From NCBI GenBank assembly GCA_903946925.1, contig CAJAXK010000103.1, positions 1 through 64,000 on the forward strand: DNA of 64,000 bases, read 5' to 3'. This stretch comes from an uncultured Bacteroidales bacterium (GTDB taxonomy: Bacteria > Bacteroidota > Bacteroidia > Bacteroidales > UBA4417). Shown in pieces: positions 14,374-52,036 of this stretch. The position numbers and the translations under genes were made by a program. Numbering within the stretch: the stretch's first letter is position 1; every line of letters begins with the position of its first letter. The notes beneath the pieces are model-generated. The model was not told where the DNA came from. It made no database searches and was given only the letters and a program-made list of their open reading frames with translations.

Positions 14374-14444
14374 GTTTCCTGTATTTGATTTCTTAAAGCT
14401 GGCTGAACCGTAACATTTCCTGCTAAAATATTTTTTCAGCCTTA

Positions 14445-25300: not shown

Positions 25301-25642
25301 CTGAGTTACAAAACCAATAAATGAAAATACCAAGGTAGTGCTATCATCAGGAACATCAAGACTATAAGTACCATTGCTGTTTGATACCACACCCGAGGTA
25401 GTACCTTTAATGATAATGCTCACACCGGGTAAGGGTACCTGCTGTTCATCGGTGACAGTACCGGTTACATTTTTTTTAGAAACCATGGTTTCAGATGATA
25501 GCGGAACTGTTCCGGTAAAATTGCCTGCCTCTAGGTTTATACCATTAAGCAGCAGAAACAACGCTGTTAGTGCTCCAATCCATCGAAACTTAAAGGTTTC
25601 CATTTTTAGATAGGTTTTGCAATTCATCACATTTTTTTTCAT
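22328..25642 (-). CDS. susC: SusC/RagA-family TonB-dependent oligosaccharide transporter
   Basis: The 1104-residue protein has a signal region, a CarboxypepD_reg-like domain (about 58-135, TVTDEQQVPLPGVSIIIKG), the TonB-box-like DEFVVVAYGKQKK and a plug (LDQALQGKMSGVQV, then IRVRGMGSI...LVVVDGFPV and EVLKDAASSALYGSRAANG). A 22-strand barrel follows, ending in aromatic TF as expected for outer-membrane insertion. It imports oligosaccharides handed over by SusD, powered by TonB. The first ATG lies only 22 bp from the conserved regulatory block; starting at Met14 (25603) would give a 61-bp leader, like the 58-59 bp of the two other block-controlled genes, so Met14 may be the true start. It is the first gene of the transcript running to the terminator at 16330. 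Confidence 0.96.
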   Translation of the reverse strand: MKKNVMNCKTYLKMETFKFRWIGALTALFLLLNGINLEAGNFTGTVPLSSETMVSKKNVTGTVTDEQQVPLPGVSIIIKGTTSGVVSNSNGTYSLDVPDDSTTLVFSFIGFVTQEIQVGAQSVINVILKQNAQKLDEFVVVAYGKQKKSHLTGSIASIKAEKLDEIPVSRLDQALQGKMSGVQVANVDPYAGEAPQIRVRGMGSISTNIDPLVVVDGFPVADGMSMVSMGDVESIEVLKDAASSALYGSRAANGVILITTKSGNIKKPKYNFKMYSGITSAYTLPGVLSQSEQTKLYAQEAEQRRLDPSVDGTSATMPFDLTNEGDQLGYLLINYIGEETDWVSEALRPNGMKNNYQLSASGGSSGTNYYISGNFNSEDGIMKNSSYDKYSFRAKVDMKLSKNITLGFNLNPSYSKKETPGVDLTSYLRFPTWMPIAHTEATSAITGQPVGTYAHPYHYGRLDLSGMGLNNEIWSVTSASASGSSMHNPVSQRDRTSILTDDYRMQSNMYLTIDIIPGLQFKTSNGAYVTYREFNEKLQTEASKAGDPNKLTRTGTFMTDLLTENTLNYAKKISNHDFGALLGFTAQKISNKANTIVATGFPDEEIISFNMASTLILDSPDLPGTTSYYYTESMVSALGRINYSYKGKYLVSASFRSDGSSKFAEGHKWGNFPAASVGWRASEEQFMKGIVWLTNLKLRVSYGLTGNNNIPQYSYMNYLNTSNYPTGSGIGTLHPGLASNNTALGNPDITWEQTQEANFGIDLGFFKSRLNLSVEYYNSTTKAMLLQSPSMYITGHQTYWNNIGEVSNNGIELELSSVNIDKKNFKWNLTANLSANKNELLGYGNKDHEDNFGERNEVYRAIVGEQAIQYFGFQSAGVYLTFEDVAAAKAMKDPETGMPFNWGDFTPVIGGLKVVNQNGDYQIDSYDRVVLGDPFPDFTWGLTNTFTFRNFDLSFLFQGVQGVDIIDGNMNYNETLRTNTAYTDNRFVSPAFPGDGKTVYGTNTAGKFLLLTDYGIVNGSYTALRDLTFGYTAPKKFVRSIKLSALRVYFSAQNLLYLMSDEYDGVNPEGRKTSGPYSSPLIDGYQRGVYPINRTFAFGVDVTF

Positions 25643-25664: not shown

Positions 25665-25771
25665 GAATGATAAAATTATATAGATGGGCTTGCGTAATCT
25701 CTAAATTATCAGCCTTGTTTTTAAAAAAATAGGTCAAATTGAAACTTATCAGTCAGGTTGATTGATAATTG
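25665..25771 (-). promoter_or_regulatory. HTCS-type regulatory block, copy 1 (susC promoter)
   Basis: Three elements occur in fixed spacing: GAATGATAAAATTATA (25665-25680), a TTATCAGCC element from 25706, and an imperfect palindrome (25746-25768) whose right arm is TTGATTGATAA. Offsets are 41 and 40 bp, identical in copies 2 and 3. TTATCA direct repeats 40 bp apart plus an inverted TGATAA fit binding by an AraC-type dimer. The proximal AT-rich element reads TATAATTTTATC on the minus strand and is the likely -10 region. The HTCS encoded at 38708 is the obvious candidate regulator. Confidence 0.7.
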
Positions 25772-26548: not shown

Positions 26549-29500
26549 TTATTGTGTTACAACAACTTTTTGTGTTACGGTCAATTTTTTGGTAACCACT
26601 TTTACGATATAAACACCGCTTGCATTTGTGTACAATTTGGTTTCGCCTGAGTTTAGACTGGAACTTGCAACTAATTGGCCTGATGTGGAATAAACATAAA
26701 TATCACCTTCAGCAATCCCATCCTGTACAACATGTATGGTGCCATTAGCTGAGAAAGTGCGTATCCCCGAATTATCAAGCTCTTTGTTACTGGTAATTAC
26801 GGTAAACCATACTTTAAAACGGTTCTCTAAATCACCCGGTGCAGCGGTGAAGGAATATACTGGGTTTATCCGCAAATCTTGTACGCTACCCAATTTCAAA
26901 TCCTGAAGAAAAATTGGGACTGTAGGGTTGAAACTTTCGATACCTTCCGCCGAAATTGTATAAGTAGACGCGGCACCAACCATTAGTCCAAGAGGAACAT
27001 TTTGGCTTGTAACGTAGGAAGGCAAAGTATTTACAGCAGCTTTTGTATCCGTCAAGATCGAGTACATTTGAGGAGCCATAGTAATTCCAGCAAGTTTGTA
27101 TGCATCCAATGCCTGATCGAAACCCGTTGTTGAACCCGTAACAAAACGAATGTAAGCAACATCCGAATAACCGTTTCCATTCACGGTAAGTTTAAGCCTA
27201 TCCTGCAACGAAGCAGTATTCTTAAGGAAAGTTCCACCTAGCGTTTTTGATGCTGAAGTGAGTGTAAGGGAATTTGTAGCAGAACCGGTTCGTACAACGA
27301 ATCCTTGAAGCGATGCAATGATGCCGGGGAAATCGCTTGTACCAATCGAAAGTGGGTTATAATTTGCTCCGTTCCACACATAAGCAAATGCATTTAAATC
27401 GCCGCTGAGGGTACACAATTCCGGATTTATCCCCGAAGGATATGGGTTTCCAACCAAATGATAGCCCGATTCGTTGCCTGGAGGTGTGGTGGGATTAGTG
27501 TATGACAAATTGGTATAAGCTACCGGTGTTGGTTGCAAGGCTCCTACAAAACTTAAAGTGCGGGTATTTCCTGTTGGATAATTGATGCTATATCCTGTTA
27601 ATGGAAGTATTGGGTCATTGAGAACCAAACTTGCCCAGGTACCATTAGGCTCCAGGTATTTTTCTAAATTCGAACCATTGAACACCGATGTTGACGAATT
27701 GATAACATTGGTTGTAATTGGCGAAACAAAATGATGCTTTATTTCGGGTCCTGCAGTTATGTCACGTTCAATGGTAACATCGCCGGTAATGGTTCCATTA
27801 GTGATAAACGAAGCACCTGATGCAACTGTAAATGTTCCGGAACCAACGTTGATGCCACTATTAGTGCTAAAATTCCCTCCAATTGCAGCGGTTGCGCCTG
27901 TAGCAAAAGCAATATTTATTCCGCCTGCTACCTGAGCAATACTGAGTGCTGAACCTACCGGAACATCTAAATCAACTCCTGTTTCCCCCTTAATAGTTAA
28001 AGTTACTGGTGCTGAAGCTTGAAGTTCAAGGTTGGTATTGTTCGATAGCAACAATTGCCCTATGGTTTGATCAGGTACATTGGTAACAATTATATTACCT
28101 CCGCTATTAAACTCAAGTACATCGTTGATTTGTGGATTTGTACGTGTTGGCGACCAGTTACCAGGAATGGCCCAGGATGCAGTTCCGCTTTGATTCCAGA
28201 AATAGGTACCTGCCGGGGGCGCTAATGTGGTAGTAGTAGCTGTTGGGCTTGACACGGTGTAATAATTATAGGTCGCCGCATTTAATCCATCTGAATTAAC
28301 TGACATAATACAAAAACTATATGTCGAATTTGGTGATAGACCGCCAATAGAAAATGCTGCAGTTGTACCAGAACTGATATTCGCCGCTACAGATCCATCC
28401 CCCAATACAGTGCCTGCCGGATAAACAGTAGCGTCCATTGGGATTCCAGTTGGCGCTGATGAACCTTGTTTTTGCAAGATAAAATATCCATCGGCAGCCA
28501 CCGCCGTCCAGCTAAGTTCAACAGTTGTAGCACCGGTTGCAACAGCAGTAAAATTAGTTACCTGATTTATCGGTTCGTCGGCCAAGGTATAAAAATCGCT
28601 TTCTAAAGTCAAAGTTGTACCAACGCTATTGCTTGCATACGCTTTATAGAAAATATGCGATTTGGCAGGAAGCGGTGTGCGCACATGCGAAAAAACACCA
28701 ATTGAAGTTGAAGTGTCTGCCAGTTTATTATTGGTTATAGTAACCCCTGTTGATGTGTTCCAAACGGTTCCCCTTTCAATAATTGCATTATCTCCATCGT
28801 AAGTAATATTACCGCCCAATGTAGCCGAATTGTTTAGAACATTCGTGGCAGTTGGATCCTGTATTGATGGGGCAATTGGACTGAGAGTGGTAAACGGTGC
28901 TGAAGCTGCGGAAAGGTAAGAGTCGGCAAAATTCACAAAATTGTCACCTTTAGCCATAACCTTGTATGTGTATGTACTGTCAGGGATAAGCCCTGTTATG
29001 GCCAAAGCCGAAACAGCCTGACCAGTAGTGTTGGTTTTGCTGATAAGGCTTGTACGTTTGTAAAGGAATACCTCATAACCTGTTGCATTTGTTACAGGTG
29101 TCCAGTTTGCGGTAAATCCGGTACGGGTAATATCTGTTGCAATGCCTACAACCGGTGCTGGTAGTGTAACCGGATTTGTCAACCTGGTAATTACCTGAAC
29201 TACTGACATACCGCCTGAGCCATTGTTCCTCACCCGAAATTTAGTTGGAACTGCCCTGCTTATGGGTATAACATAAATAGAATCCAAACCTGAGGCTTTG
29301 CTTGCTGTGTTATACACATAAGTCCCGATCAAATCCCATACGCTTGTGGATGTATTATATTCTTCCAGCACAAAACTTCTTTCGGCCGTACCTGTATATG
29401 CGTGTATTTCAATTTGTTCAACCGAATTTATTTCCGGAAAAACGACAAGGCTGTTATATGAATTCTTATCCAGGTTAAAATCATTTATATGTTCTTCGCC

Positions 29501-30985
29501 CCTTCGATCTTTTTTGTTCGCTTCCCTAACCACCGCTTTTTCGAGGATAAAACCATTTATTGAATAGGATGGGAATGTTCCATTTGCAGGGGTTTCAGGA
29601 ACAGGTATACCCCAAGTTCCATCGCCGAGGTCAGTATGTATTGTATCTAAAATCACATAACTGGTAATAAAAACTGCTGAAGCTGCTGATGGGGTGGAAT
29701 CAAAATAGGTGGTCCCGTCGCCTTTGGCTATTACTACAAAAGTATAGGATGTGCCGAACGACAAGCCAGTTACGGCCAAACTTGAAGTTGCCTGACCCGT
29801 GGCATTGGATGTGCTTACAAGCTGAGTGCCAAGATATACCCTGACTTCATACCCTGTAGCATTGGCAACGGGAGTCCAATTTGCGGTGAAACCGCTTGCC
29901 GTAATATTCGTTGCAATTCCTACCACAGGCGGCAAAAGGCCTAAAGTTGTAAATGCAGTAGATTCAGCGGATGGGTCGGAATTTGTATAATTTATACCAT
30001 CCCCTACTGCTGTTACCTTATATGTATAAGTGGTACCAGATGAAAGCCCCGATATGGCAACGCTTTCGGTAACCTGCCCACTTGCATTGGTAGTATTAAC
30101 AAGAGTGGTTCCAGAATAAACTTTAACAATATACCCGGTTGCATTAGCTACCTGGGTCCAGTTTGCTGTAAAACCCGAGTTCGAAATTGCAGATGCTACG
30201 CCAACTATTGGCGATGGCAGTTTAGGTATCTGAACGGCTACTGCAGAAGCCCATGAGGTTGATACCCGTGCTCCACTAACATTATACTTTGAGACAGAGG
30301 TGCCATTTGCCCTGAACCAGAAGTTGTTCAAAGAAGTTCTTATTGTAGCCGAGGTATTATCAAAGACCTCAGGTGTTGTTGGTTCTGTGCCGGAAATTAT
30401 AGGATTTATATAGATTGATGAAGTTTGGGTTGCAAAATCATACTTTAAAACAATCAGAAAGACCTCGTTTACGTCTGCAAACTCGGTTGTTCCCCATTTG
30501 ATGTCAGCACTCGACTGGCTTCCCCTGGTTGTACCAAATCTGAAATAAGTTGTATTTATAGCACCTTTTCCAACATATACTTTTGCACCTGCATTTGTAT
30601 TTATTGCCATCCCAAAAACCTCTGATTGTGATTGAACCTGAGTAACCCCTGGTTTATATATAAAAGTTAAATATACGGGACCAGTTGTTACAGGTGTAGA
30701 GGTAAAGGGTTTTAAGGAATAATAAGCTGTGGCAGATGAAATATCGCAATTTATTGTTTTTCCTGCACCGGAAAGGAAATACGGGCCACCAGAATTTGAG
30801 TAGGTAAGTGCCGGTGATACAATATTTCTTCCTGTACCTGTGGTGAGTGTTCCAGCAGTTGTCCATGTAGGTTCAAGTGCCAGATTTGAAACTGTGTAGT
30901 CAAAGGTTTCATCATACAAAACCTGTCCTTTGGAGTTCAGAAATAAGGAACACAGTGCTAGTAAAAGTATTAGTATTTTTTTCAT
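26549..30985 (-). CDS. Giant secreted multidomain surface protein (shared module, fibronectin III repeats, T9SS domain)
   Basis: The 1478-residue protein has a signal peptide and the shared N-terminal module (about 20-250, LYDETFDYTVSNL...). Two fibronectin-III domains follow (about 253-440, GFTANWTQVANATGY type), then an unnamed module of about 160 residues (443-606, starting near LGDGTWGIP and including KDRRGEEHIND). A third FnIII is at about 607-700, two more FnIII-like domains at about 702-920, and a beta-helix-like stretch (about 922-1080) begins GTASWAIPGNWSPT. A T9SS sorting domain ends it (about 1413-1478). It has no catalytic motif, so I read it as a cell-surface adhesin or glycan-binding scaffold. 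It lies 60 bp downstream of the related 896-residue gene and shares its promoter. Confidence 0.72.
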   Translation of the reverse strand: MKKILILLLALCSLFLNSKGQVLYDETFDYTVSNLALEPTWTTAGTLTTGTGRNIVSPALTYSNSGGPYFLSGAGKTINCDISSATAYYSLKPFTSTPVTTGPVYLTFIYKPGVTQVQSQSEVFGMAINTNAGAKVYVGKGAINTTYFRFGTTRGSQSSADIKWGTTEFADVNEVFLIVLKYDFATQTSSIYINPIISGTEPTTPEVFDNTSATIRTSLNNFWFRANGTSVSKYNVSGARVSTSWASAVAVQIPKLPSPIVGVASAISNSGFTANWTQVANATGYIVKVYSGTTLVNTTNASGQVTESVAISGLSSGTTYTYKVTAVGDGINYTNSDPSAESTAFTTLGLLPPVVGIATNITASGFTANWTPVANATGYEVRVYLGTQLVSTSNATGQATSSLAVTGLSFGTSYTFVVIAKGDGTTYFDSTPSAASAVFITSYVILDTIHTDLGDGTWGIPVPETPANGTFPSYSINGFILEKAVVREANKKDRRGEEHINDFNLDKNSYNSLVVFPEINSVEQIEIHAYTGTAERSFVLEEYNTSTSVWDLIGTYVYNTASKASGLDSIYVIPISRAVPTKFRVRNNGSGGMSVVQVITRLTNPVTLPAPVVGIATDITRTGFTANWTPVTNATGYEVFLYKRTSLISKTNTTGQAVSALAITGLIPDSTYTYKVMAKGDNFVNFADSYLSAASAPFTTLSPIAPSIQDPTATNVLNNSATLGGNITYDGDNAIIERGTVWNTSTGVTITNNKLADTSTSIGVFSHVRTPLPAKSHIFYKAYASNSVGTTLTLESDFYTLADEPINQVTNFTAVATGATTVELSWTAVAADGYFILQKQGSSAPTGIPMDATVYPAGTVLGDGSVAANISSGTTAAFSIGGLSPNSTYSFCIMSVNSDGLNAATYNYYTVSSPTATTTTLAPPAGTYFWNQSGTASWAIPGNWSPTRTNPQINDVLEFNSGGNIIVTNVPDQTIGQLLLSNNTNLELQASAPVTLTIKGETGVDLDVPVGSALSIAQVAGGINIAFATGATAAIGGNFSTNSGINVGSGTFTVASGASFITNGTITGDVTIERDITAGPEIKHHFVSPITTNVINSSTSVFNGSNLEKYLEPNGTWASLVLNDPILPLTGYSINYPTGNTRTLSFVGALQPTPVAYTNLSYTNPTTPPGNESGYHLVGNPYPSGINPELCTLSGDLNAFAYVWNGANYNPLSIGTSDFPGIIASLQGFVVRTGSATNSLTLTSASKTLGGTFLKNTASLQDRLKLTVNGNGYSDVAYIRFVTGSTTGFDQALDAYKLAGITMAPQMYSILTDTKAAVNTLPSYVTSQNVPLGLMVGAASTYTISAEGIESFNPTVPIFLQDLKLGSVQDLRINPVYSFTAAPGDLENRFKVWFTVITSNKELDNSGIRTFSANGTIHVVQDGIAEGDIYVYSTSGQLVASSSLNSGETKLYTNASGVYIVKVVTKKLTVTQKVVVTQ

Positions 30986-31045
30986 ATAATATTGTTTTTA
31001 AGCGAATTACTGGATTGGTTGTTTTTTTTATTGAATATTCAGCTT

Positions 31046-33736
31046 CTAAGGCATTTTCTTACCGGCAAATCCAGTTGCATTTGCATTTATAAGTTGCAAA
31101 TCTGTTTCATTTACCATCCCATCCCCATTCACATCATTTGCAACATAACCGGTAACAAAGTTTGATGCATCGTTGTCAACAACAACCAAATCACCTGCAT
31201 CAACAATGCCATCCTGGTTTACATCGCCGGCATACATACCAAACACACCGCTTCCAAGGTCTTTCATGTTATTGCCAAATGCTTGTGAAACTGAGGTGCT
31301 GAAATTATAATCCATTGTGGTTCCTGCAAATGAAACCGGGACGGAACTCCAAAGTTCGACGCTGTTGCGATGTTTGATTACGATGTAGTAGGAACCAGAA
31401 GCAAGATATGAGATAGAGTCGATTGACAGAGTTCCACCTGTGCTTAAATCTATTGCATTAAAAGTAAAAGCGGTTGCGTAAGGCGCTGTTGAATTGTGCA
31501 ATTCAATGCTTACCTGATCAGCAATTTCAGGGGCAAATTGAGCAGCCGAACTCTTTTGAGCCTGGTTCATTGTATTGGATCCTGCGTAAAGACTTTCGAG
31601 GAAAACTGTGAGGTTGAGGGTTTTAACAGGTGGTGAAAGCAGGGTAAATGGTGCTGAAGCTACTGATAGATACGAGTCGGAGTAGTTTACAAAACCATCG
31701 CCTTTTGCAAGAACCTTGTACGTGTATGTTGAATCGGGGATAAGCCCTGTTATGGCAGCGGACGAAATGGTTTGACCACTTACGCTGCTTGTGTCAACTA
31801 AATTTGTACGCTTATAAACAAACACCTTATAGCCTGATGCATTGGTTACGGGTGTCCAGTTGGCAGTAAATCCAATATGAGTAATATCCGTAGCAGTACC
31901 TACTACCGGCGATGGCAGCGTGGCAGGATTTGTATGCCTGGTAATTACCTGTGCTATATTCATCCCGCCACCTCCGGTGTTTCTCACCCTGAACTTGGTT
32001 GGGACTGTTCTGGTGATAGGTATAACATATATGGAATCGAACCCCGAGTTCTTGCTTGCTGTGTTATATATGTAATTCCCAACTAAAACCCATGCACTTG
32101 TACCTGAATTATACTCTTCTACTGCAAAAGGTCTTTCGGCTGAACCTGTATATGCATGCAATTCAATTTGTTTCACTGAATCTACAACCGGAAACACAAC
32201 TGCGCCTGCATTGGAGAGATTGTCAAGAGCAATGTCGTTAACATGCGTTTCGCCTCTCCGGTCTCTCTTGGTAATAGCTCTGATAACAGATTTTTCCATA
32301 ACAAAACCGTTTATTGAACTTGATGGGAAAAAGCCGTTTGCAGGTGTGGAAGAAGCAGGTGTACCCCAGGACCCATCTCCAAAATCGGTGTGAATAGTAT
32401 TCACATTCATATAGCTTGTAATGAAAACCGGAGAAGCAGTTGAAGGTGACGAATCAAGATATGTTGCACCATCACCCTTTGCTATTATCACAAAAGTATA
32501 AGAAGTACCAAATGACAAGCCAGTAATCGCCAGACTTGCAGTTGCCTGACCGGGGGCATTTGTGGTGCTAACGAGAAAGGTCCCCAGGTATACCTTAATA
32601 TCATAACCACTAGCGTTAGCAACGGCTGTCCAGTTTGCAGTGAAACCGTTTGCTGTAATATTTGTTGCAACTCCAACTGTTGGTTGCGTAAGGCCCAATG
32701 TTATAAATGCAGCCGATGCTGCTGAAGGATCTGAACTGGAAAATGTTGTGCCATTGCCAATTGCTGTAACCGTATATGTATAAGTAGTTCCTGATGCAAG
32801 ACCAGATACGGTTACGTTCTCAGTAGCCTGTCCGCTGGCATTTGTTGTGTTTACAAGGGTAGCCCCGGAATAAACTTTAACCGTATACCCTGTAGCATCA
32901 GGTACCTGGGTCCAGTTAGCAGTAAAACCTGTAAGCGAAATTGAGGATGCTGTACCAACAATAGGTGAAGTTAGTTTAGGAATCGCAACAATCGCCACTG
33001 CATCAGTCCAAGAACTGGAAACTCTTGCACTACTTAGATTGAAATTTGCTTTATTATTACCGTTATATCTAAATCGAATTGTACTAAGTGTATTTTTGCC
33101 TGTTCCTGATACACTGTCAGCTGCGTTTGCAGCCGGTTGTGAAGAAGATCCTAATGTTGGAGTGATAAAAATCGATGAAGTTAATTTTGTAAAATCATAT
33201 TTTAGAACAATTATAAATACGGCATTCAAGTCAAAGTATTCTGTCACCCCCCATTTTATATCTGCACTGCCTGTATTGCCTCTGGTCGTACCGAACCTGA
33301 AACCAGTTGTAAGTCCCTTCCCAACCATTACTTTAGGCCCAGTGCTAGCTCCATCCCCGAGTCCAATTACTTCAGATTGACTTTGACCTTGAGCTACTCC
33401 GGCTTTGTATAAAAAGGATAAATATACTGATCCGGAATTAACGCTACCAAATGCTTTATAGCAAATATAATCGGCAGCCCCATTTGTATAATCACTATTT
33501 ATTTTTTTTCCCTGACCGGAAAGCAAATAAGTTCCATCGGTAGTTACATAAGTTAATGCAGGAGTAGCAATATTTCTTCCCGTGCCGACGACCGGGGGTG
33601 TTCCCGATGAAGTCCATGTTGGTTCTAGATCAAGTTTTGCAACACTATAATCAAATGTTTCATCCAGCAATACCTGTCCGAAAGTGCTCGTAATCAACGA
33701 GAACAGGGCAACTATTAAAGTAAAGTTTTTTTTCAT
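31046..33736 (-). CDS. Secreted multidomain protein with fibronectin III repeats and a dockerin-like C-terminus
   Basis: The 896-residue protein has a signal peptide, the shared module (about 20-250), two FnIII domains (about 250-438), the 160-residue module (440-605), a third FnIII (605-700) and a beta-domain (about 703-830). The last 65 residues carry two dockerin-like Ca2+ loops, DVNQDGIVDAGD and DVNGDGMVNETD, about 33 residues apart. There is no T9SS tail, unlike its two relatives. The first 700 residues are close to those of the 1178- and 1478-residue proteins, with near-identical stretches suggesting recent duplication or gene conversion. It is preceded by regulatory block copy 2 and heads a two-gene transcript. 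A role as a cell-surface or released glycan-binding scaffold is likely. Confidence 0.72.
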   Translation of the reverse strand: MKKNFTLIVALFSLITSTFGQVLLDETFDYSVAKLDLEPTWTSSGTPPVVGTGRNIATPALTYVTTDGTYLLSGQGKKINSDYTNGAADYICYKAFGSVNSGSVYLSFLYKAGVAQGQSQSEVIGLGDGASTGPKVMVGKGLTTGFRFGTTRGNTGSADIKWGVTEYFDLNAVFIIVLKYDFTKLTSSIFITPTLGSSSQPAANAADSVSGTGKNTLSTIRFRYNGNNKANFNLSSARVSSSWTDAVAIVAIPKLTSPIVGTASSISLTGFTANWTQVPDATGYTVKVYSGATLVNTTNASGQATENVTVSGLASGTTYTYTVTAIGNGTTFSSSDPSAASAAFITLGLTQPTVGVATNITANGFTANWTAVANASGYDIKVYLGTFLVSTTNAPGQATASLAITGLSFGTSYTFVIIAKGDGATYLDSSPSTASPVFITSYMNVNTIHTDFGDGSWGTPASSTPANGFFPSSSINGFVMEKSVIRAITKRDRRGETHVNDIALDNLSNAGAVVFPVVDSVKQIELHAYTGSAERPFAVEEYNSGTSAWVLVGNYIYNTASKNSGFDSIYVIPITRTVPTKFRVRNTGGGGMNIAQVITRHTNPATLPSPVVGTATDITHIGFTANWTPVTNASGYKVFVYKRTNLVDTSSVSGQTISSAAITGLIPDSTYTYKVLAKGDGFVNYSDSYLSVASAPFTLLSPPVKTLNLTVFLESLYAGSNTMNQAQKSSAAQFAPEIADQVSIELHNSTAPYATAFTFNAIDLSTGGTLSIDSISYLASGSYYIVIKHRNSVELWSSVPVSFAGTTMDYNFSTSVSQAFGNNMKDLGSGVFGMYAGDVNQDGIVDAGDLVVVDNDASNFVTGYVANDVNGDGMVNETDLQLINANATGFAGKKMP

Positions 33737-33795
33737 AACTTTTGGTTTAAATCGGTTTTATGGTTAGGTGTTTTGGTTTCTAAGTTTGGTTAGCG

Positions 33796-33902
33796 GAATG
33801 ATAAAATTATACAGAACATACTTGCTTTTATTGAAGTTATCAGCCTTGTTTTAAAAAAAATAGGTCAAAATAAAACTTATCAATCAAATTGATTGATAAT
33901 TG
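33796..33902 (-). promoter_or_regulatory. HTCS-type regulatory block, copy 2
   Basis: Same three elements as before susC: GAATGATAAAATTATA (33796-33811), TTATCAGCCTTG from 33837, and a perfect palindrome at 33877-33899 with 11-bp arms TTATCAATCAA and TTGATTGATAA around a single A. Spacings of 41 and 40 bp are identical to copies 1 and 3. It ends 59 bp upstream of the 33736 start codon. Confidence 0.75.
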
Positions 33903-34425
33903 AAAAGGTATTTATACCTAAAAAAGGGAATAGCTGGAATAGATAAATTTTTGTTGAAGATATTTCTAAATTAAACACGATAAAACCAAATTTGCAAAAA
34001 TGATCATCACAAAAGAGGTCGAATATAATGGTTTTTAAAGATAGCTTTTACATAAGACAACTCAATGGTTCAGGGTGATATGTGTTACCTCCCTTCAAAA
34101 TCGTGTTAAGTCAATCCTTGCAAAGGTTATTACAGTAACTCACCTACAATTGGGCATAACTTGATTATATTTTCGTTTTTGGACTTACTAGCAGGTTATT
34201 TTGAAAAACATATATGCTAAACAAACACTTTTTCACAGATTGTCAATGAATGCCTTTGTGTTACATTAGAATCTCTAAAATCGTTAGATGTTGTATCAGG
34301 CTTTTGCAAGATTCAAGAAAAAAAAATCTGCCCTGTAAATAAGCAGTTTGCTTTAGTTTGTTTTCTTAAGTGTTTTTGTGGAAAAGGCTGCATGATAGGT
34401 TCGGAAGGAGGAGTTGAAATTACAT

Positions 34426-34464
34426 AAAAAAACACAGTTACCCAAAATAAGCGGGATAACTGTG
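34426..34464 (-). terminator. Rho-independent terminator after the 79-residue gene
   Basis: CACAGTTA followed by CCC (34433-34443) pairs with GGG, a bulged A, and TAACTGTG (34453-34464). A seven-U run follows on the minus strand (34426-34432 on plus). It ends the 1178-residue protein transcript and is a near copy of the one at 26372-26411. Confidence 0.8.
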
Positions 34465-34502
34465 CTAATCATTCAACATGAGCCTTGAAGGGCAATCGTT
34501 AT

Positions 34503-34742
34503 TTATTCTCCGAAAGTATTTACACGCTCCCCGTGTACTTTTCTTACTCCATAAGCTATTGCTAAAGTTAACAATATTAATGTACCGTTACCGATTGGTG
34601 CGCTCGGGCCAACAGGATTGTTTGTTGGTCCACCAGGTGCATTTGGTGAAAAACCACCATTCGGATGAGGCTGTGCAAACATAAGCAGAGGTGCTGTTAT
34701 CAAAAAGGCTGCAATAACAGTTACCAGTATCTTTCTTTTCAT
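34503..34742 (-). CDS. Small exported protein with a PID-CTERM-like C-terminal segment
   Basis: The 79-residue protein has an N-terminal signal peptide (MKRKILVTVIAAFLITAPLLMFAQ), a short Pro/Gly/Asn-rich middle, then PSAPIGNGTLILLTLAIAYGVRKVHG. The tail is a short motif, one hydrophobic helix and a basic end, the layout of Bacteroidota tripartite sorting-type tails; I recall a family named PID-CTERM for similar P-[IL]-[DG] helix-RK ends. It follows the 1178-residue gene by 97 bp and precedes a good terminator, so it is probably the last gene of that transcript. Function unknown; it may be an anchored small surface peptide. Confidence 0.6.
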   Translation of the reverse strand: MKRKILVTVIAAFLITAPLLMFAQPHPNGGFSPNAPGGPTNNPVGPSAPIGNGTLILLTLAIAYGVRKVHGERVNTFGE

Positions 34743-34839
34743 ATCTTTTTGTTTTATTTTTGTTTCTAATCTTTACTTAAGGATTTTGGGGTCAGGGTTT
34801 TGGGGTTGTTGTGTTGCCCCTCACCCCTCGCCTTGTCTA

Positions 34840-37800
34840 TTAGTTAACAAACACTTTTTTAACCAACGTATTATCCTTGCTAATCACTTTTACTATATAA
34901 TTACCTGTTCGATTGAGGCCAATCTCATTCATGCCTTTTGCTGATGTTTGGGTCGAAATCAACTCACCTAGTACATTATAGACGAAAATATCGCCTTCAA
35001 CCCGGTCTTTGAAATTAACATAAACTGTTTTTCCGTAACTATATATAAGTGCAGTCGAACTTTCTATATCGTTTGTTGACAACGGGCCAAAATGTAGTAC
35101 AAAACGCTGCGCTGTTTCGCCTGGAATAAAGTTAAACGAATAGGAACTTTTCAACAAATCCGTAAGGATCCCAGTTTTAGTATCTTCCAGGGTTACCTTC
35201 GAAAACTCACCTGTTTTGGCAGCTTTGATACTAAAAAAACCTGCTTCAACTGCTGTAAATCCAACAGGAACATCGGATGTTGCGGGCAAACCATTAATTG
35301 CCAGTTTTTCACCCATTGGGGTTATTGAATAAATCTGCGGCAATTTAGAGTTTTTGGTGCTTATAATCTTATATGCATCAAATTGCCCATCATGCTCTAT
35401 ACCTGCTTGTTCATTGAAATAAACCAATGCCTGATCGGAGTAGTTTGATCCGGTTGCTTCGAGAATCAATAATTTCGGGTTCCCTGATTTGTAGAAATTG
35501 TTTGCTCCTGAATGTGAGCGTTGTGCATTACCCAGTTCAAATATCCCAGGTGCTGTTGCTTTTACAAAAAATCCTTGCATCGGAGGAACAAATTGCGAAT
35601 TGCTCTGACCTGGTATCCCTTTTATATAAGGAAGATAATTACTGGAAGCAGCATCAAGTACATAAACCACATTATCCATTCCTGCAGGGATAATAACATT
35701 TTCCCAATCCAGTGAAGACACAAATGGATTTCCCATCAAATTGTAACCGTCGCTACCAAAAGTGAATGACCTGGTTTTAGTTCCCAGGTTCAAGTCGCCG
35801 GTGAATGAAACAGTATTTGTAGTACTTAAGGTTGAATAAAGAGCATAGCCTTCCATTACGTTCAAAAGAGTAGCGTCACTTGTAATATCGGAAAACAAGG
35901 AAGAGGTTTCAGAGTAATTCTGCATGTACATACCCGAAAATACACCTGCTGTTGCAACCACAACAGGGGATGATACAAGATGCCAGTCATCGGTGCTTGG
36001 TGGAGGATCGCCAGTAAAATACCTTTGCACTGTTGCAGTACCGGATACGGTTAAAAATCCGTTATCCAGCAAAGTAGCAGTACCGGCAGCAGTTGACCCA
36101 AAAAGTATGTTATGACAGGTTCCGGCTGCCGAAAGTGTTGGATACCTTACTAATCCTGCTGGTATGGTTACATCAGTAAATGCGCCCGGTGTGGATGGGT
36201 TCCAGTTTCCAGGTATGGACCATTCGTTGCTTTCAGCACCTGTCCAGGTAGCAGAAGCAGGAGGTGAAAGTATTGTAACAGGTGTTGATGCTGAAGAGAG
36301 GTAGGAGTCGGCATAATTTACATAACCATCACCAGTAGTCCGCACTTTGAACGTATACGTCGAATCGGATATAAGCCCTGTTATGACTTTGGATGCTGTA
36401 GATTGGCCACTCACACTGGTTTGGCTGACGAAATTGTCGCGTTTGTAAACAAATACCTCATACCCTGTTGCGTTAAGTACTGGAGTCCAGTTTGCTGTAA
36501 ATCCGAAGCTTGTAATATCCGATGCCGCTCCTATTACAGGAACCGGAAGTGTAACCGGATTTGTAAGCCTTGTTATTACCTGGGCTATATTCATCCCACC
36601 ACCACCGGTGTTTCTTACCCTGAACTTGGTAGGGACAGACCTGCTGATAGGAATAACATATATTGAGTCATAACCCGAAGCCTTGCTTGCCGTGTTATAT
36701 GTGTATGTACCAATAGGAATCCATGTACTTGTACCTGCATTATACTCATCCAATGCAAAAGTTCTTTCGGCTGTGCCTGTATATGCATGCAATTCAATCT
36801 GTTCCACTGAATTTACTTCCGGAAAAACAACAACTCCTGCATTGGTGAGATTGTCGAGAGCAATATCGTTTATGTGTGTAAACCCTCTCCGGTCTTTTTT
36901 AGTAATGGCTCTGATAACTGCTTTTTCCATGACAAACCCGTTTATCGAACTTGATGGGAATAAGCCGTTTCCAGGAGTGGCACCTGCTGGAGTTCCCCAT
37001 GTTCCATCGCCAAAGTCGGTATGGATTGTATTTACAATACTATATGTCGTGATAAAAGTCGGCGATGCAGCTGAAGGTGACGAATCAAGGTATGTTACAC
37101 CATCTCCTTTTGCAATTACAACAAAAGTATAGGATGTGCCAAATGAGAGACCAGTAATTGCCAGGTTCGTGGTAGCCTGACCGGGAGCATTTGATGTGCT
37201 TACTAGCAATGTACCCAAATATACCTTAACATCATACCCAGTTGCATTGGCAACCCCAGTCCAGTTTGCTGTAAAACCGCTTGTTGTAATATCTGTTGCT
37301 ACTCCTACTGTTGGTTGTAAAAGCCCCAAGGTTGTAAATGCAGCCGATGCCGTAGAAGGATCTGAACTGGAATAACTAGTGCCATTGCCAATTGCTGTAA
37401 CCGTGTAAGTATAAGTAGTACCAGATGCAAGACCGGATATGGCCACACTTTCAGTTGCCTGCCCACTGGCATTGGTCGTACTTACAACTGTTGCTCCCGA
37501 ATAAACTTTAACGCTGTAACCGGTTGCATTAGCCACCTGGGTCCAGTTTGCAGTAAAGCCCGTAACCGCAATTGAAGATGCTGTCCCTACAACAGGCGAA
37601 GTGAGTTTAGGGATCTGTGTAAAAACTGCTTCAGCCCATGTTCTTGATACCCTGACCCCACCAATATTATATTTCATACTTGAGGTGCCTTGAGCCCTGA
37701 CCCACAAATTATTAAGGGAAGTTCTGGCTGTACCGGAATTGTCCGAAATATCGGCTACAGGTTCAGTACCGGAAATGATTGGATTTATAAAAATGGAAGA

Positions 37801-38376
37801 AAATTGAGTAGAAAAATCATATTTCAAAACTATAAGAATGACCTCATTAACATTAGCAAATTCGGTAGAAGCCCATTTAACATCACCACCTGACTGGCTT
37901 GATCGGGTAGTACCAAATCTAAATGAAGTAGTTGTTACAACCCCTTTACCAACATAAACCTTTGGGCCTGCACTAGTTCCGGTTGACATTCCAAAAACCT
38001 CTGAATTAGTTTGATTTTGGATTACACCGGCTTTATACATGAAAGTTAAATAAATCGGACCTGTTGAGATAGGAGTTGCAGTAAAAGGCTTTAAAGAGTA
38101 GTAGCTAGTGGCATTAGTAATATCGGAATTCATTATTTTTCCTGTACCAGATAGATAATATATTCCTCCCGAATTTGAGTACGACAAGGCTGGTGAAACA
38201 GTTGGATCTAGTATATTCCTTCCTGTTCCAGCAAGTAAAGTTCCTGAAGTTGTCCAACCAGGTGCAGAAGCCAGATTTGGAACTGTATAATCAAAGGTTT
38301 CATCCAGCAGTACTTGTCCGAAAGTACTCGTAATCAACGAGAACAGGGCAATCATTAAAGTAAAGTTTTTTTTCAT
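34840..38376 (-). CDS. Giant secreted multidomain surface protein (shared module, fibronectin III repeats, T9SS domain)
   Basis: The 1178-residue protein has a signal peptide and the shared module (about 20-250, LLDETFDYTVPNL and YLTFMYKAGVIQNQTNSEV). Two FnIII domains (252-440), the 160-residue module (445-605) and a third FnIII (605-700) follow. The C-terminal half opens WTGAESNEWSIPGNWNPS and continues as a surface-type repeat region (HNILFGSTAAGTATLLDNG, YNLMGNPFVSSLDW). A T9SS-type end covers about 1105-1178 (GDIFVYNVLGELISTQTS). No catalytic signature is visible. It is preceded by block copy 3 in the region divergent from the HTCS gene, so it is a strong candidate target of that regulator. 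Confidence 0.72.
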   Translation of the reverse strand: MKKNFTLMIALFSLITSTFGQVLLDETFDYTVPNLASAPGWTTSGTLLAGTGRNILDPTVSPALSYSNSGGIYYLSGTGKIMNSDITNATSYYSLKPFTATPISTGPIYLTFMYKAGVIQNQTNSEVFGMSTGTSAGPKVYVGKGVVTTTSFRFGTTRSSQSGGDVKWASTEFANVNEVILIVLKYDFSTQFSSIFINPIISGTEPVADISDNSGTARTSLNNLWVRAQGTSSMKYNIGGVRVSRTWAEAVFTQIPKLTSPVVGTASSIAVTGFTANWTQVANATGYSVKVYSGATVVSTTNASGQATESVAISGLASGTTYTYTVTAIGNGTSYSSSDPSTASAAFTTLGLLQPTVGVATDITTSGFTANWTGVANATGYDVKVYLGTLLVSTSNAPGQATTNLAITGLSFGTSYTFVVIAKGDGVTYLDSSPSAASPTFITTYSIVNTIHTDFGDGTWGTPAGATPGNGLFPSSSINGFVMEKAVIRAITKKDRRGFTHINDIALDNLTNAGVVVFPEVNSVEQIELHAYTGTAERTFALDEYNAGTSTWIPIGTYTYNTASKASGYDSIYVIPISRSVPTKFRVRNTGGGGMNIAQVITRLTNPVTLPVPVIGAASDITSFGFTANWTPVLNATGYEVFVYKRDNFVSQTSVSGQSTASKVITGLISDSTYTFKVRTTGDGYVNYADSYLSSASTPVTILSPPASATWTGAESNEWSIPGNWNPSTPGAFTDVTIPAGLVRYPTLSAAGTCHNILFGSTAAGTATLLDNGFLTVSGTATVQRYFTGDPPPSTDDWHLVSSPVVVATAGVFSGMYMQNYSETSSLFSDITSDATLLNVMEGYALYSTLSTTNTVSFTGDLNLGTKTRSFTFGSDGYNLMGNPFVSSLDWENVIIPAGMDNVVYVLDAASSNYLPYIKGIPGQSNSQFVPPMQGFFVKATAPGIFELGNAQRSHSGANNFYKSGNPKLLILEATGSNYSDQALVYFNEQAGIEHDGQFDAYKIISTKNSKLPQIYSITPMGEKLAINGLPATSDVPVGFTAVEAGFFSIKAAKTGEFSKVTLEDTKTGILTDLLKSSYSFNFIPGETAQRFVLHFGPLSTNDIESSTALIYSYGKTVYVNFKDRVEGDIFVYNVLGELISTQTSAKGMNEIGLNRTGNYIVKVISKDNTLVKKVFVN

Positions 38377-38707
38377 ACTTTTTGGTTTAATCGGTTTTAT
38401 GGTTGGTTGATTTGGTTTCTAAGATTACGTAGCAGAATAATAAAATTATACAGAATAAACCAGCTATTATAGAAGTTATCAGCCTCGTTTTTAAATAAAT
38501 AGGTCAAAATAAAACTTATCAATCAAATTGAATGATAATTGAAAAGGCATTTCCACCTAAAAAAGAGGAATAGCTGAAATAAATTGCTTATTTTTGAAAA
38601 TATTTCCGACTGATACCCGGTTCCTCAAATTTCAAGGAACAACTTTTGGACAAAAAGATCAGCTTTGCCCCTTCTTAAGGGCATTTTAGAACCCAAAACA
38701 CAAACAC
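38377..38707. other. Divergent intergenic region between the 1178-residue surface protein and the HTCS gene
   Basis: This 331-bp region holds regulatory block copy 3 at 38435-38541. The last 165 bp before the HTCS start show no clear promoter box. Confidence 0.6.
38435..38541 (-). promoter_or_regulatory. HTCS-type regulatory block, copy 3
   Basis: GAATAATAAAATTATA (38435-38450), a TTATCAGCCTCG element from 38476 and a near-perfect palindrome (38516-38538, one arm mismatch) recur with the same 41- and 40-bp spacings. It ends 58 bp before the start at 38376 and lies 167 bp from the divergent HTCS start, so autoregulation is also possible. Confidence 0.75.
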
Positions 38708-41700
38708 ATGCGAATACATATACTCCTGCTGGCCTTTATTTTTTCGTTTTGCGGCTTTTCGTTTGCAACCATTCCCGATAATATTAATTTTTCGTTTCGT
38801 AGGATTTCCCCTGTGGGCGGATTTACGTATGGGTCGATAAATTCCATCTGCGAGGATGCGAATGGCTTTATTTGGTTTGGCACAATTCATGGCTTATACC
38901 GTTACAATTCGGTTGATGTACAGAAATTCCTGCATAGCCCACAAGATTCTACCTCTATTCCCGACAATTCGATTCGCACCATTTTTCTTGATTCGTCGGG
39001 AACGCTTTGGATTGGTACTGCCCAAGGGGTTTGTATTTACGATAATGATAAAGACCAGTTTATTACACTCAAATTTAGGGATAAATCGGGGGAAAGCCTG
39101 GGGAATAATATCCGTGATATTTTTGAAGGCAAGGATAAAAACATCTACCTCCTTAGCAACACCATGTTGGGGAAATACAATAAGGAAACCAAAAAGTTTG
39201 AAAAAATAGTGGTTGCAAAATCCACAACTGAGAATTTTGCCTGTGCTAATTACGATTCGAAAGGGCGGTTTTGGATTGGTGGGGCTAACGGGACCGTTTG
39301 GATGCTTGAAGCAACAGACCAAAAATTACGTGTGTTTTGCCATCATCAGTCGGAATTGATACGGAAGTTATTTTCCGATGAAACAGGGCTTTGGATTGGA
39401 TATGATTTGTCGGGGCTTGATTTTGTTGGATTTCAGGGAAATTTGATACGGCATTATGGTAGCAATCCCAACGATACATATAAAATCAATCACAACCGTG
39501 TCCGCGATATCAATAAAGATGAGGCCGGGCGGATATGGATTTCGACATACAAAGGCATTTCGATTATCAATAATGGCAAAAGTTATAATATCCTTCCGAA
39601 AGAAATTTCCGGTTTGCCCTATAACAGTATCTATAAAATATTCCGCGATTCAAAAAACGGCATCTGGATTGGAACCTGGTCGGGTGGACTTGCTTACAGA
39701 TCCGATTTCGATAACCGGTTTTTTCATTTTCGAAAAGATCAGACCGATTCGGAAATGGAGGACGAATTTGTGAGTTCGTTTGCCGAAAAATCGGACAAAA
39801 CTGTTCTGATAGGAACCGAATTTGGTAACCTTAATCTTCTCGACCGGGAATCAAATAAAATGATCAACGTCCCTTTTAAAACAGAAAACGGGAAAAAATT
39901 TGAAAATATCAAGTCGTTGTACTTCGACAAGGAAACAGAAACCCTTTGGGTGGGCACATTTTTGGAAGGTTTGTGGTATCAGACTAAAAATGACAATACT
40001 TTACATGAACTGAAAAAATTTAATCAAGATAGAATAAGCATATATGCGCTTGCCAAATCAGGCATCAACTTGTGGATTGGCACTTTTGGCAAAGGACTAT
40101 ACCATTACAACACCCAAACAGGCATAATGAAACAGTATGTTCAAGTAGCACGTAATGCAAAGTCGTTAAGCAATAACCAAATACGCTCAATTATTAGCGA
40201 CAATGAAAACGGAATCTGGATTGGGACTAAAAATGGATTAAATTATTTCGACCCAAAAACCGCAGAATTTCAACGATTTATGAACTTGCCTAATGCCACC
40301 AATTGTATCAGCAACGACGAAATACTATCCTTGTATCAGGATCGCAAAGGTAAAATCTGGATTGGAACCAGTGGGGGCGGCTTGAACAAATACGATAAAA
40401 AAACAGGGAAATTCGAGTCGTTTGGGGTAAAGGATGGCTTATCGGGTAACGATGTGTACGGAATACAGGAAGACCAAAATGGAATACTCTGGATAAGTAC
40501 CGAAAATGGCATCTCAAGCATTGATCCGATAAAGAAAACGATACGGAATTTTTACAGGGAAGATGAACTTAAAGGCAACCAATTCAATCCGGGAGCGGTA
40601 TTTCAAACCAGCTCAGGCGAAATACTTTTTGGCAACACTAAAGGGTTCACGCTTTTTACTCCGGGGCAGATGAAAACCAACCCTATTCCACCAAAGGTTA
40701 TCCTAACCTCCCTATCAATCAACAATTTGGCTGTAACCAACCATACTGAAGGATCACCATTGACAAAATCACTTCAAAATGAAGACATCCTGAAACTTAC
40801 ATTCGATCAAAATTCGCTCACTTTTAATTTTGTGGCCAATAATTTTTTACTACCTGCCAAAAACCAGTTTAAATATAGGTTGATGAATTACGATAATAAA
40901 TGGGTGGAAGCAGGAACACAAAACTATGCGGCCTTCACTAAAATCCCTCCAGGGGATTATGTGTTCGAGGTAATTGCTTGTAACAACGACAATTTGTGGA
41001 GCAACACACCTACTCGTTTGAAGATCAGTATTTCGCCGCCTTTTTGGTTGGCGTGGTATGCCAAACTGATTTATATATTGGCCGTTTCCTTAGCTTTCTA
41101 TTATGTCCGCAAGGAAGTGGTTGCCCGTCAGAAGTTTAAAAAGGAACTCTTGCTCGAACGCCTGCGGCACGAATCGGAAGCCCAGTTGCAGGAAATGAAG
41201 CTAAGGTTTTTTACAAATATTTCGCATGAATTCAGGACGCCACTTACACTTATTTCGTCGCCAATAAACCTGTTGATCGAAAAATTCAAGCTGGAACCTT
41301 CAGTAAAGGAACATCTACTCACCATGCGGCGCAATTCGGACCGCCTGTTACGATTGGTGAACCAACTGATTGATATTCGCAAAATCGAATTGGGGAAAGC
41401 CGTTTTTCAGCCACAACACACAGATCTTATACACTTATGCCGAAACGTGATCAGTTGTTTCGAAATGGAGGCTGTTGACAAACAAATACGTTTGCTTTTT
41501 AATCCCGAAATTGAATTGTTGATCTTGCCTCTTGATGCAGAAAAGGCGGAAAAAATATTCTTCAATATCCTTTCGAATGCAATGAAATTTACTCCCGAAA
41601 AGGGGACAATCGGCATCACCGTTTATTCGACCCATTCAGATGAAAATGCTGACGAAAACCTTGTTGTAGGTGAACAAATTCAAGGTAATATGATTTGTGT

Positions 41701-42787
41701 CGAATTTTCGGACAACGGGCCTGGTATAGCACCGGAGGATCTCAAATTAATATTCGAACGCTTCGAACAAGGCAAAAAACACCAATCGTCAGGCACTGGG
41801 ATTGGTTTACACATTGCTCACGAGTACATAAAAATGCACAAAGGCAACATAAGGGTGAAATCAAAAATTGGGACTGGTTCAACTTTTACCATCAGTTTTC
41901 CGTTTAACGAAGAGCTTGATCCGAAAAAAGAATGGAAAGCAGCAAGTGATTTTAACCCTCAGTTTAATGTTCTGGCCGAACCAAACAGTTTCCGTCCACC
42001 ACATGAAGAAAAGGAAAAAACATATACCATCCTTATTGTTGAGGATAATTATGACCTTAGGAATTACCTAAAAAACCTGTTAAACCAGCAATACCATATT
42101 GTTACTGCGCCAAATGGCAAGCAAGGCCTCGAAACTGCCCTGACCATACTTCCCGAATTGGTTATTACCGATGTGATGATGCCACAGATGGATGGTTTGG
42201 AATTATGCCGGCAGCTAAAAGACAATATTTTAAGCAGCCATATTCCTGTAATAATGCTTACCGCCTTTAGCGATTCCGAAAAACAAATCGGTGGGTTGAA
42301 AACTGGTGCCGATGCTTATATCACCAAGCCTTTTGATGAAAATATCCTGATGGCGCAAATCGAAAATTTAATTTCATCGAGGGCAAAACTCAGGGAAGTA
42401 TTCTCTGTTTCCGATACTGCCTGGGCCGAAGGAATGGATGTGATGTTTTCGGATAAAATGCTGATTGAAAAAGCCACGGCTATTGTGGAAAAACATTTAA
42501 GCGACAAATCTTTTGTAATTGATAATCTTGCCTCTAACATTGGAATCAGCACAAGTTCCCTTTACCGGAAATTGAAAATGCTTACCAACCAATCGCCAAC
42601 CGAGTTTGTGAGGTATATCCGACTAAAGAAAGCAATCAAGCTTATGAACGATGGGAACACAAATGTGGATGAAATTGGTTTCGCAGTTGGTTTCAATTCC
42701 CACTCCTATTTTACGAGCAGTTTCAAGAAACAATTTGGGATAACACCTTCCGATTATATTATCGATCTGAAGACGAAAAAGAAATAA
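38708..42787 (+). CDS. Hybrid two-component system (HTCS) sensor-regulator of the PUL
   Basis: The 1359-residue one-protein phosphorelay has a signal peptide (1-20). A periplasmic two-bladed propeller made of Reg_prop repeats follows (many copies of the IWIGT type, about 40-640), then a Y_Y_Y domain (about 690-775: FKYRLMNYDNKWVEAG) and one membrane helix (about 780-800). The HisKA domain has His840 in NISHEFRTPLTLI, the HATPase carries NAMKFTPEKG, DNGPGIAPEDL and GTGIGLHIAHEY, the receiver has Asp1155 in ITDVMMPQMDG, and an AraC HTH lies at about 1255-1359 (GFNSHSYFTSSFKKQFGITPSDY). HTCSs bind the oligosaccharide directly in the periplasm and activate the PUL. It is divergent from the adhesin genes, and repeated operator-like blocks mark its likely targets. 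Confidence 0.95.
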   Translation: MRIHILLLAFIFSFCGFSFATIPDNINFSFRRISPVGGFTYGSINSICEDANGFIWFGTIHGLYRYNSVDVQKFLHSPQDSTSIPDNSIRTIFLDSSGTLWIGTAQGVCIYDNDKDQFITLKFRDKSGESLGNNIRDIFEGKDKNIYLLSNTMLGKYNKETKKFEKIVVAKSTTENFACANYDSKGRFWIGGANGTVWMLEATDQKLRVFCHHQSELIRKLFSDETGLWIGYDLSGLDFVGFQGNLIRHYGSNPNDTYKINHNRVRDINKDEAGRIWISTYKGISIINNGKSYNILPKEISGLPYNSIYKIFRDSKNGIWIGTWSGGLAYRSDFDNRFFHFRKDQTDSEMEDEFVSSFAEKSDKTVLIGTEFGNLNLLDRESNKMINVPFKTENGKKFENIKSLYFDKETETLWVGTFLEGLWYQTKNDNTLHELKKFNQDRISIYALAKSGINLWIGTFGKGLYHYNTQTGIMKQYVQVARNAKSLSNNQIRSIISDNENGIWIGTKNGLNYFDPKTAEFQRFMNLPNATNCISNDEILSLYQDRKGKIWIGTSGGGLNKYDKKTGKFESFGVKDGLSGNDVYGIQEDQNGILWISTENGISSIDPIKKTIRNFYREDELKGNQFNPGAVFQTSSGEILFGNTKGFTLFTPGQMKTNPIPPKVILTSLSINNLAVTNHTEGSPLTKSLQNEDILKLTFDQNSLTFNFVANNFLLPAKNQFKYRLMNYDNKWVEAGTQNYAAFTKIPPGDYVFEVIACNNDNLWSNTPTRLKISISPPFWLAWYAKLIYILAVSLAFYYVRKEVVARQKFKKELLLERLRHESEAQLQEMKLRFFTNISHEFRTPLTLISSPINLLIEKFKLEPSVKEHLLTMRRNSDRLLRLVNQLIDIRKIELGKAVFQPQHTDLIHLCRNVISCFEMEAVDKQIRLLFNPEIELLILPLDAEKAEKIFFNILSNAMKFTPEKGTIGITVYSTHSDENADENLVVGEQIQGNMICVEFSDNGPGIAPEDLKLIFERFEQGKKHQSSGTGIGLHIAHEYIKMHKGNIRVKSKIGTGSTFTISFPFNEELDPKKEWKAASDFNPQFNVLAEPNSFRPPHEEKEKTYTILIVEDNYDLRNYLKNLLNQQYHIVTAPNGKQGLETALTILPELVITDVMMPQMDGLELCRQLKDNILSSHIPVIMLTAFSDSEKQIGGLKTGADAYITKPFDENILMAQIENLISSRAKLREVFSVSDTAWAEGMDVMFSDKMLIEKATAIVEKHLSDKSFVIDNLASNIGISTSSLYRKLKMLTNQSPTEFVRYIRLKKAIKLMNDGNTNVDEIGFAVGFNSHSYFTSSFKKQFGITPSDYIIDLKTKKK

Positions 42788-44358: not shown

Positions 44359-44450
44359 TTTCGGATGTTTTTATGTTTAAAGCACCAAAAGGTATAACTA
44401 CTAAAATCAGTACTTATTAGCGGTTGTTTTTAATCTTGATTCACTTAAAA

Positions 44451-44530
44451 TGTACGAATTACAAATTACGACTTACGATATTTTTTCAGCGAGTTAAACT
44501 TGTCAATCGTAATTCGTACATCGTAAATAA
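44451..44530. repeat. Intergenic ACGAATTAC-type word repeat with inverted ends
   Basis: TGTACGAATTAC (44451-44462) is perfectly inverted at 44509-44520 (GTAATTCGTACA). Variants of the word (AAATTACGA, CTTACGA, CGTAAAT) fill the flanks. It lies upstream of the oxidoreductase and may form a long-range hairpin; no promoter was recognised in the same gap. Confidence 0.6.
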
Positions 44531-44609
44531 AATTAAAACTTGACTCAACTGACAGCCTCTCACTAATTATTTAAATTTTCTTTCCGCCTGAACTTTCCAT
44601 AGAGTGAAT

Positions 44610-45971: not shown

Positions 45972-46060
45972 GGTAAGGTTTTTACTTGTGGTTCATTACT
46001 TTATCAGCGAAACAGGACCCCATATTCCAATTGGAAATGCATCCGTTTCCTCTTAGAATG

Positions 46061-47005: not shown

Positions 47006-47335
47006 AGTTTTTTTCGAGGATAGCGTTTAAATTCAGTTAAATGTTATGATTTCATTTTACCTTAAGGTCAGATAGTGGGATGGAAGCTTTTATTCCTGTT
47101 CCAGAGAATAAACCAGCCCAGTAATGGCAACGGTTGTTGCTTCAACGTTTCTCCGAATCCTAGCCAGTTGCAGCGAAAAGCAGTTTTCATAGTAGGTTAA
47201 ACATTTAATTTGTTGGATGTATTAAAATCTGTTTCCAAATCCAGCCAGAGTGAGGAACCGGAACCAGGAATTAGATACCCCTCAGCCTGCCACGTGAATA
47301 TATGCAGGGCAAGCTTTAGGGTATTACTCCAATTA
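47006..47335. other. Intergenic region between the transporter and the isomerase-fold gene
   Basis: This 330-bp stretch has no recognisable promoter or repeat. A 40-codon minus-strand frame (47068-47190, ATG to TGA) exists but has no support and was not called. Confidence 0.5.
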
Positions 47336-48652: not shown

Positions 48653-48742
48653 TTTGGTCAGGGATTTGGGTTATAAGGGTTTCTTTTCTATGGTTCAAAT
48701 GTTCAATGCTGCGCGTTCAAGGTTCAATGGCTCGTGTGATCC

Positions 48743-48917
48743 CTTGTTCAAATATTCGTTTGTTCGCTTGTTCAATTGTTCGTTTGTTCAATTGTTCAAT
48801 TGTTCGATTGTTTGTTTGTTTGATCAATTATTCGTCTGTCCAACTATCAATAATATCATTCCCAAATCCTCACATCCCCAAATCTCCACATTTTCAAATT
48901 TTCAAATTTCCACATTC
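48743..48917. repeat. Intergenic short tandem word repeats (GTTCAATT and CAAATTTC types)
   Basis: 48743-48840 is built from TTGTTCAATTGTTCG-like units repeated about every 7-8 bp. 48860-48917 is a second array of CCAAATCT/CACATTTTCAAATTT-like units that runs into the 3' end of uxaC. Neither has coding support. Similar 'word' repeats occupy several gaps of this operon. Confidence 0.6.
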
Positions 48918-50317: not shown

Positions 50318-50419
50318 GTTTTTTTGATTAGGTTTTGTTTAAAGTGTGCTGAAAGACGAGTCTGGTACGGATTGAATTTCGGAACCGATGAACCAACTGG
50401 TATTCAGATTTTGGAATAG

Positions 50420-51874: not shown

Positions 51875-51928
51875 ATTAATTTGTGGTTTTATTAATTTTT
51901 ACAACATTTTTTTTCTTAGAAGCCAGTT

Positions 51929-52035: not shown

Positions 52036-52036
52036 A

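Follow-up and report, generated by a model that had tools for sequence, protein, structure and literature searches.

We identified a 107-bp block that recurs upstream of four operons of one PUL in the 64,000-nt stretch of DNA analysed here (the window), and we consider it quite probable that the block combines an activator operator with the core promoter common to these operons, its predicted binder being the HTCS encoded at 38708-42787 (+). The block, its fourth copy, the constrained spacing of its elements, its register with a -7 promoter box and its restriction to the PUL were computed directly. An earlier note on this DNA had proposed that a block under selection for protein binding delimits one regulon, and it had named the divergent HTCS as the natural candidate for the binder. 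At the level of sequence, the first proposal is supported by elements that are kept and a spacing that is fixed. The HTCS likewise appears to be the best candidate, as suggested by the restriction of the block to the PUL, the co-occurrence of block and HTCS in 2 of 16 genomes, and a geometry broadly like that of reported HTCS operators.

Copies and anatomy of the block

The three copies that the earlier note had described are all present. Copy 1 (25665-25771, minus strand) lies upstream of susC (22328-25642, minus strand), which encodes a SusC/RagA family TonB-linked outer membrane protein, and of a probable operon that continues through susD (20726-22264, minus strand) down to 12901. Copy 2 (33796-33902, minus strand) precedes the gene for an 896-aa fn3/dockerin protein (31046-33736, minus strand), and copy 3 (38435-38541, minus strand) precedes that for a 1178-aa fn3 protein (34840-38376, minus strand) in the intergenic region that separates this gene from the divergent HTCS gene. 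susC, susD and the 896-aa and 1178-aa genes are proposed targets. In each copy, the start of the AT-rich element and TTATCAGCC are offset by 41 bp, and TTATCAGCC and the palindrome by 40 bp, as had been noted. The set of three was incomplete, since a fourth in-register copy (12618-12724, minus strand) had been overlooked; it lies upstream of a sulfatase operon whose first gene (10879-12480, minus strand) starts at 12480. A search that allowed mismatches and used part of the block led to 12680-12704 (minus strand), between this sulfatase gene and a lyase gene (12901-14454). With copy 4 held out, a weight matrix built from six sites (susC, 896 and 1178 in each of two genomes) gave the 68-bp core of copy 4 a score of 35.6 bits, compared with -19.6 for the next place in the window and -2.4 for the best score in 30 shuffled windows. 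Copy 4 would leave a 5' leader of about 140 nt (12480-12624), longer than at the other three promoters.

The four blocks head successive gene runs (38376-34840, 33736-26549, 25642-12901, and 12480 downward), inside which the gaps are at most 299 bp, except for one of 795 bp (8460-9254) in the sulfatase run. This gap holds only a TTG-start ORF (8495-9166, 223 aa) and no block, and it is possibly an extra promoter or a degraded gene. The second run includes the gene for a 1478-aa fn3 protein (26549-30985), 60 bp downstream of the 896-aa gene.

In the orientation of the minus-strand genes, the block aligns in register and free of indels at all eight sites, namely four promoters in each of two genomes: the source genome (G000, 6.17 Mb) and G011, the deposited MAG KTt_bin-0938 of an uncultured Bacteroidales. 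Counted from the upstream end with the first base as 0, it consists of a left palindrome arm (3-13), a right arm that we call half-site A (15-25), element B (33-44), element C (55-65), a spacer (66-91) and a promoter box (93-100). In copy 2, which has a model score of 72.9 bits, these are a perfect 23-bp palindrome TTATCAATCAATTTGATTGATAA (33877-33899) whose right half is half-site A (33877-33887), element B TTTGACCTATTT (33858-33869), element C AAGGCTGATAA (33837-33847; TTATCAGCC in the earlier note) and a probable -7 box TAATTTTA (33802-33809) that ends 66 bp before the ATG, all on the minus strand. The corresponding minus-strand positions of half-site A, B, C and the box are 25746-25756, 25727-25738, 25706-25716 and 25671-25678 in copy 1; 38516-38526, 38497-38508, 38476-38486 and 38441-38448 in copy 3; and 12699-12709, 12680-12691, 12659-12669 and 12624-12631 in copy 4, where the box reads TATTTTTG. 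The consensus of half-site A is TTGATTGATAA and that of element C is AAGSCTGATAA. From A to B is 19 bp and from B to C is 21 bp, and the elements thus lie about two helical turns apart.

The three-element anatomy given earlier has to be revised, because one of its elements is probably core promoter and because it overlooked the invariant TTTGACCTATTT between the palindrome and the middle element. Element B is identical in the six susC/896/1178 sites and carries 2 mismatches in copy 4. The palindrome was correctly described as having 2, 0 and 1 arm mismatches in copies 1, 2 and 3; it is perfect in copy 2, but it is not evenly kept, with 5 of 11 arm positions mismatched in copy 4. Over the eight sites, the right arm shows 0-2 mismatches to the consensus and the left arm up to 5. 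Because the left arm decays while the right arm persists, the palindrome probably consists of one strong, directional half-site and an inverted partner that is weaker. The right arm (A) and the middle element (C) form a direct repeat 40 bp apart, which scores 11.3 where the 95% null maximum is 11.1. The 19-bp A/B repeat scores at most 8.8, within the null, the 21-bp B/C likeness is absent from the best-ranked pairs, and B resembles A and C in part each. The internal direct repeat of the block is therefore only moderate.

The AT-rich element of the earlier note is, on the transcribed strand, probably a Bacteroidetes -7 promoter box. Promoters of the primary sigma factor (sigma-ABfr) carry -33 TTTG and -7 TAnnTTTG (PMC7366714), and the match to the latter makes core promoter the best reading of this element: the column holds TAATTTTA in six sites, with one mismatch to the consensus, and TATTTTTG in the copy-4 sites of both genomes, an exact match. 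In the alignment of the sites, no TTTG is present where a -33 box would be expected. A -33 box was likewise not found in Flavobacterium johnsoniae (PMC7366714), so its absence does not disqualify a sigma-ABfr promoter. Between element C and the box, the spacer is constant in length, with 23-38% identity between the non-duplicated copies of the source genome.

Distribution of the block and other explanations

We searched whole genomes with a sequence-only model made from the eight 68-bp cores. The results show four strong matches in each of the two genomes (64-75 bits), all in one orientation and all at promoters of this PUL, instead of the many unrelated promoters that the earlier note had named as the outcome against its proposal. 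With opposite-strand self-matches of the palindrome set aside, the next best score is 15.8 bits in G000; in G011 it is 25.4 bits, for a match on contig C149 whose upstream half reads as signal-peptide coding sequence on the other strand and which was treated as a chance match. The genus sample comprises 16 genomes (the source genome and 15 congeners), and none of the other 14 contains a strong site. Orthologs of HTCS and SusC occur in 2 of the 16 genomes, the same two that carry the block, and 14 of the 15 congeners lack block, HTCS and SusC alike; the co-occurrence of block and HTCS is thus confounded by the absence of SusC from the same genomes. Among four local DNA matches inspected in other genera, three lie inside coding sequence and one at a gene edge without the rest of the block, and all were taken as chance. 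At 79 loci with other, mostly distant HTCS-type genes, the block was found only at the known ortholog, which indicates that the motif is not common to distant HTCSs.

The perfect 11-bp-arm palindrome of copy 2 is typical of homodimeric helix-turn-helix regulators, and a LacI-family regulator is encoded at 55377-56516 in the adjoining uronate-catabolism cluster (43000-56516). The palindrome could thus be the operator of another regulator, either this LacI protein or a global Crp-like factor, with only B and C belonging to the HTCS, but we regard this as unlikely. The palindrome has no other occurrence within 2 mismatches in the 6.17-Mb genome, no strong site of the block lies near the LacI gene itself or near the uronate-catabolism cluster, and the right arm is retained where the left arm decays (to 5 mismatches in copy 4). 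The palindrome is also unlike the published Crp-like consensus wwwTATGTTnTAnAACATAwww. LacI orthologs (78-82%) are present in 3 of the 14 congeners without the block (G008, G014 and G015), which makes LacI a poor candidate. As binder, it was rejected because of this distribution, together with a palindrome that is not symmetric in all sites and is absent from the LacI cluster. The LacI ortholog of G011 (L199, G011:C68:4029-5159) contains one in-frame TAG and may be a pseudogene or reflect an assembly error.

It is less likely still that the block is a promoter region copied by segmental duplication, its similarity reflecting recent descent and not selection for binding. A blastn search of the 6.17-Mb genome with 261 bp around copy 2 returned the other two copies of the earlier note at 87% and 82% identity, and one further match of 45 bp that is weak and unrelated. 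Similarity between copies 2 and 3 extends over about 260 bp (87%), gene starts and coding DNA included, and by this comparison they are partly a segmental duplication. The resemblance of copy 1 to copy 2, however, is limited to the block (82% over 107 bp), and that of copies 1 and 4 is confined to it as well, with the elements kept and the spacer randomised at constant length. The core is also better conserved between the two genomes than the flanking intergenic DNA: at the susC, 896 and 1178 promoters, the 68-bp core is 87-93% identical, compared with 53-74% for the adjoining upstream intergenic DNA. The fn3 proteins of 1478, 896 and 1178 aa are paralogous, with a nucleotide identity of about 70-79% across about 2 kb in a cross-genome comparison, and the 896 and 1178 promoters were duplicated along with their fn3 genes (26549-38376 of the window).

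The conservation in relatives that the earlier note had proposed to examine is found in G011, where the block lies upstream of the orthologous susC, 899-aa, 1178-aa and sulfatase genes and the HTCS ortholog is 89% identical. In the sulfatase part of the locus (7412-12753), identity between the two genomes is 92-97%, compared with about 85% for susC, the fn3 genes and the HTCS, and the sulfatase half was possibly exchanged recently. Because the sulfatase stretch shows such unusual similarity (94-97%), the conservation of copy 4 is weak evidence by itself, and together with the duplication of copies 2 and 3 it reduces the independent observations to fewer than eight. A transcribed RNA leader, riboswitch or mobile repeat would account for a repeated palindrome-bearing intergenic sequence at several loci, but it is highly improbable given that no Rfam match was found within the 64-kb window, that the palindrome leaves almost no loop, that the block occurs genome-wide solely at the promoters of one PUL and in one orientation, and that its 3' end is a -7-type box.

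The HTCS as the predicted activator

The preferred reading remains an activator operator joined to a core promoter, with the HTCS as its binder. The HTCS (1359 aa) combines the full expected set of sensor, kinase, receiver and AraC-type DNA-binding domains in one chain (Reg_prop repeats, Y_Y_Y, HisKA, HATPase_c, Response_reg and HTH_18/HTH_AraC); its best PDB matches are 4a2l for the sensor and 12aw for the receiver and DNA-binding domains (REC-DBD). Its gene adjoins susC/susD and degradative genes. The gene set contains several sulfatases, one of which has iduronate-2-sulfatases as its nearest counterparts among named solved enzymes, a PL6-type lyase that matches alginate lyases best among solved structures, and a glucuronate isomerase, and these suggest that the substrate of the PUL is a sulfated uronic-acid polysaccharide.

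In the following scheme, we infer the binder and its phosphorylation, the inducer, the start sites and the activating role. The HTCS would sense an oligosaccharide of the PUL in the periplasm and phosphorylate its own receiver domain, and its AraC-type domains would then bind the tandem half-sites A, B and C. Along the direction of transcription, the predicted order is inverted half-site, half-site A, element B, element C, a spacer of fixed length and free sequence, and the -7 box; the operator would lie upstream of the start site, with C just upstream of the would-be -33 position. The HTCS subunit proximal to C may recruit sigma-ABfr RNA polymerase to a promoter that would be weak without a -33 box. 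The four operons would together form the half of the PUL for depolymerisation and uptake, comprising sulfatases and lyases, susC-susD with PL6-type lyases, the 896- and 1478-aa fn3 genes, and the 1178-aa fn3 gene. These operons are probably sensor-controlled, and the uronate-catabolism cluster beside the LacI gene probably is not.

Near-palindromes are atypical for HTCS motifs, which makes a second factor possible. A rigid, extended HTCS operator of four half-sites, one inverted and the other three in tandem with spacings of 19 and 21 bp, bound cooperatively by two HTCS dimers, is a rather doubtful reading. If it holds, a membrane-tethered regulator would keep a promoter segment of about 65 bp at the inner membrane, and the operator architecture would go beyond the described two-site direct repeats.

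Relation to known operators and promoters

The earlier note had held that HTCS operators are rarely defined, but motifs have been predicted for 16 HTCSs (Ravcheev et al. 2013, PMC3878776). In Bacteroides thetaiotaomicron, the predicted motifs consist of direct repeats with a mean distance of 21 bp, interpreted as dimers on one helix face (PMC3878776). In vitro, DNA of predicted target promoters is shifted by the regulatory fragments of HTCSs (PMC5061871, PMC11253607). Most HTCSs are kept from binding until they are phosphorylated, through an inhibitory contact that the receiver makes with the DNA-binding domain (PMC11253607). The block is most likely a well-delimited further example of this known operator class, not a new type of switch, although judged by its elements the predicted array is somewhat longer than the described two-site motifs. 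It provides an HTCS from outside the genus Bacteroides with a candidate regulon that comprises four promoters, has element boundaries at the level of single bases, and includes a diverged natural variant (copy 4).

The block resembles B. thetaiotaomicron HTCS operators (e.g. those of HTCS_Hep/BT4663 and HTCS_Rgu) in its placement upstream of susC-like and enzyme operons with the HTCS gene alongside, in its putative direct-repeat half-sites, in conservation across orthologous PULs, and in several promoters per regulon. The comparison covers placement and spacing. The block differs in its length (68 bp, with three tandem elements and an inverted half-site), in its fixed register with a -7 box, and in its host, an uncultured Bacteroidales lineage. 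With sigma-ABfr promoters it shares the -7 box (TAATTTTA or TATTTTTG) at a fixed position, and it differs by lacking the -33 box, as expected of an activator-dependent promoter. In the E. coli araBAD promoter, which is activated by an AraC-type domain, araI1-I2 is a direct repeat of two half-sites at a distance of about 21 bp, of which the downstream one adjoins the -35 region. The block is like araI1-I2 in its putative direct repeats of about 21 bp and in activation by an AraC-type domain, which is predicted here, whereas it belongs to the Bacteroidetes -33/-7 promoter type, is assigned to a membrane-bound hybrid kinase, and carries an extra upstream half-site pair.
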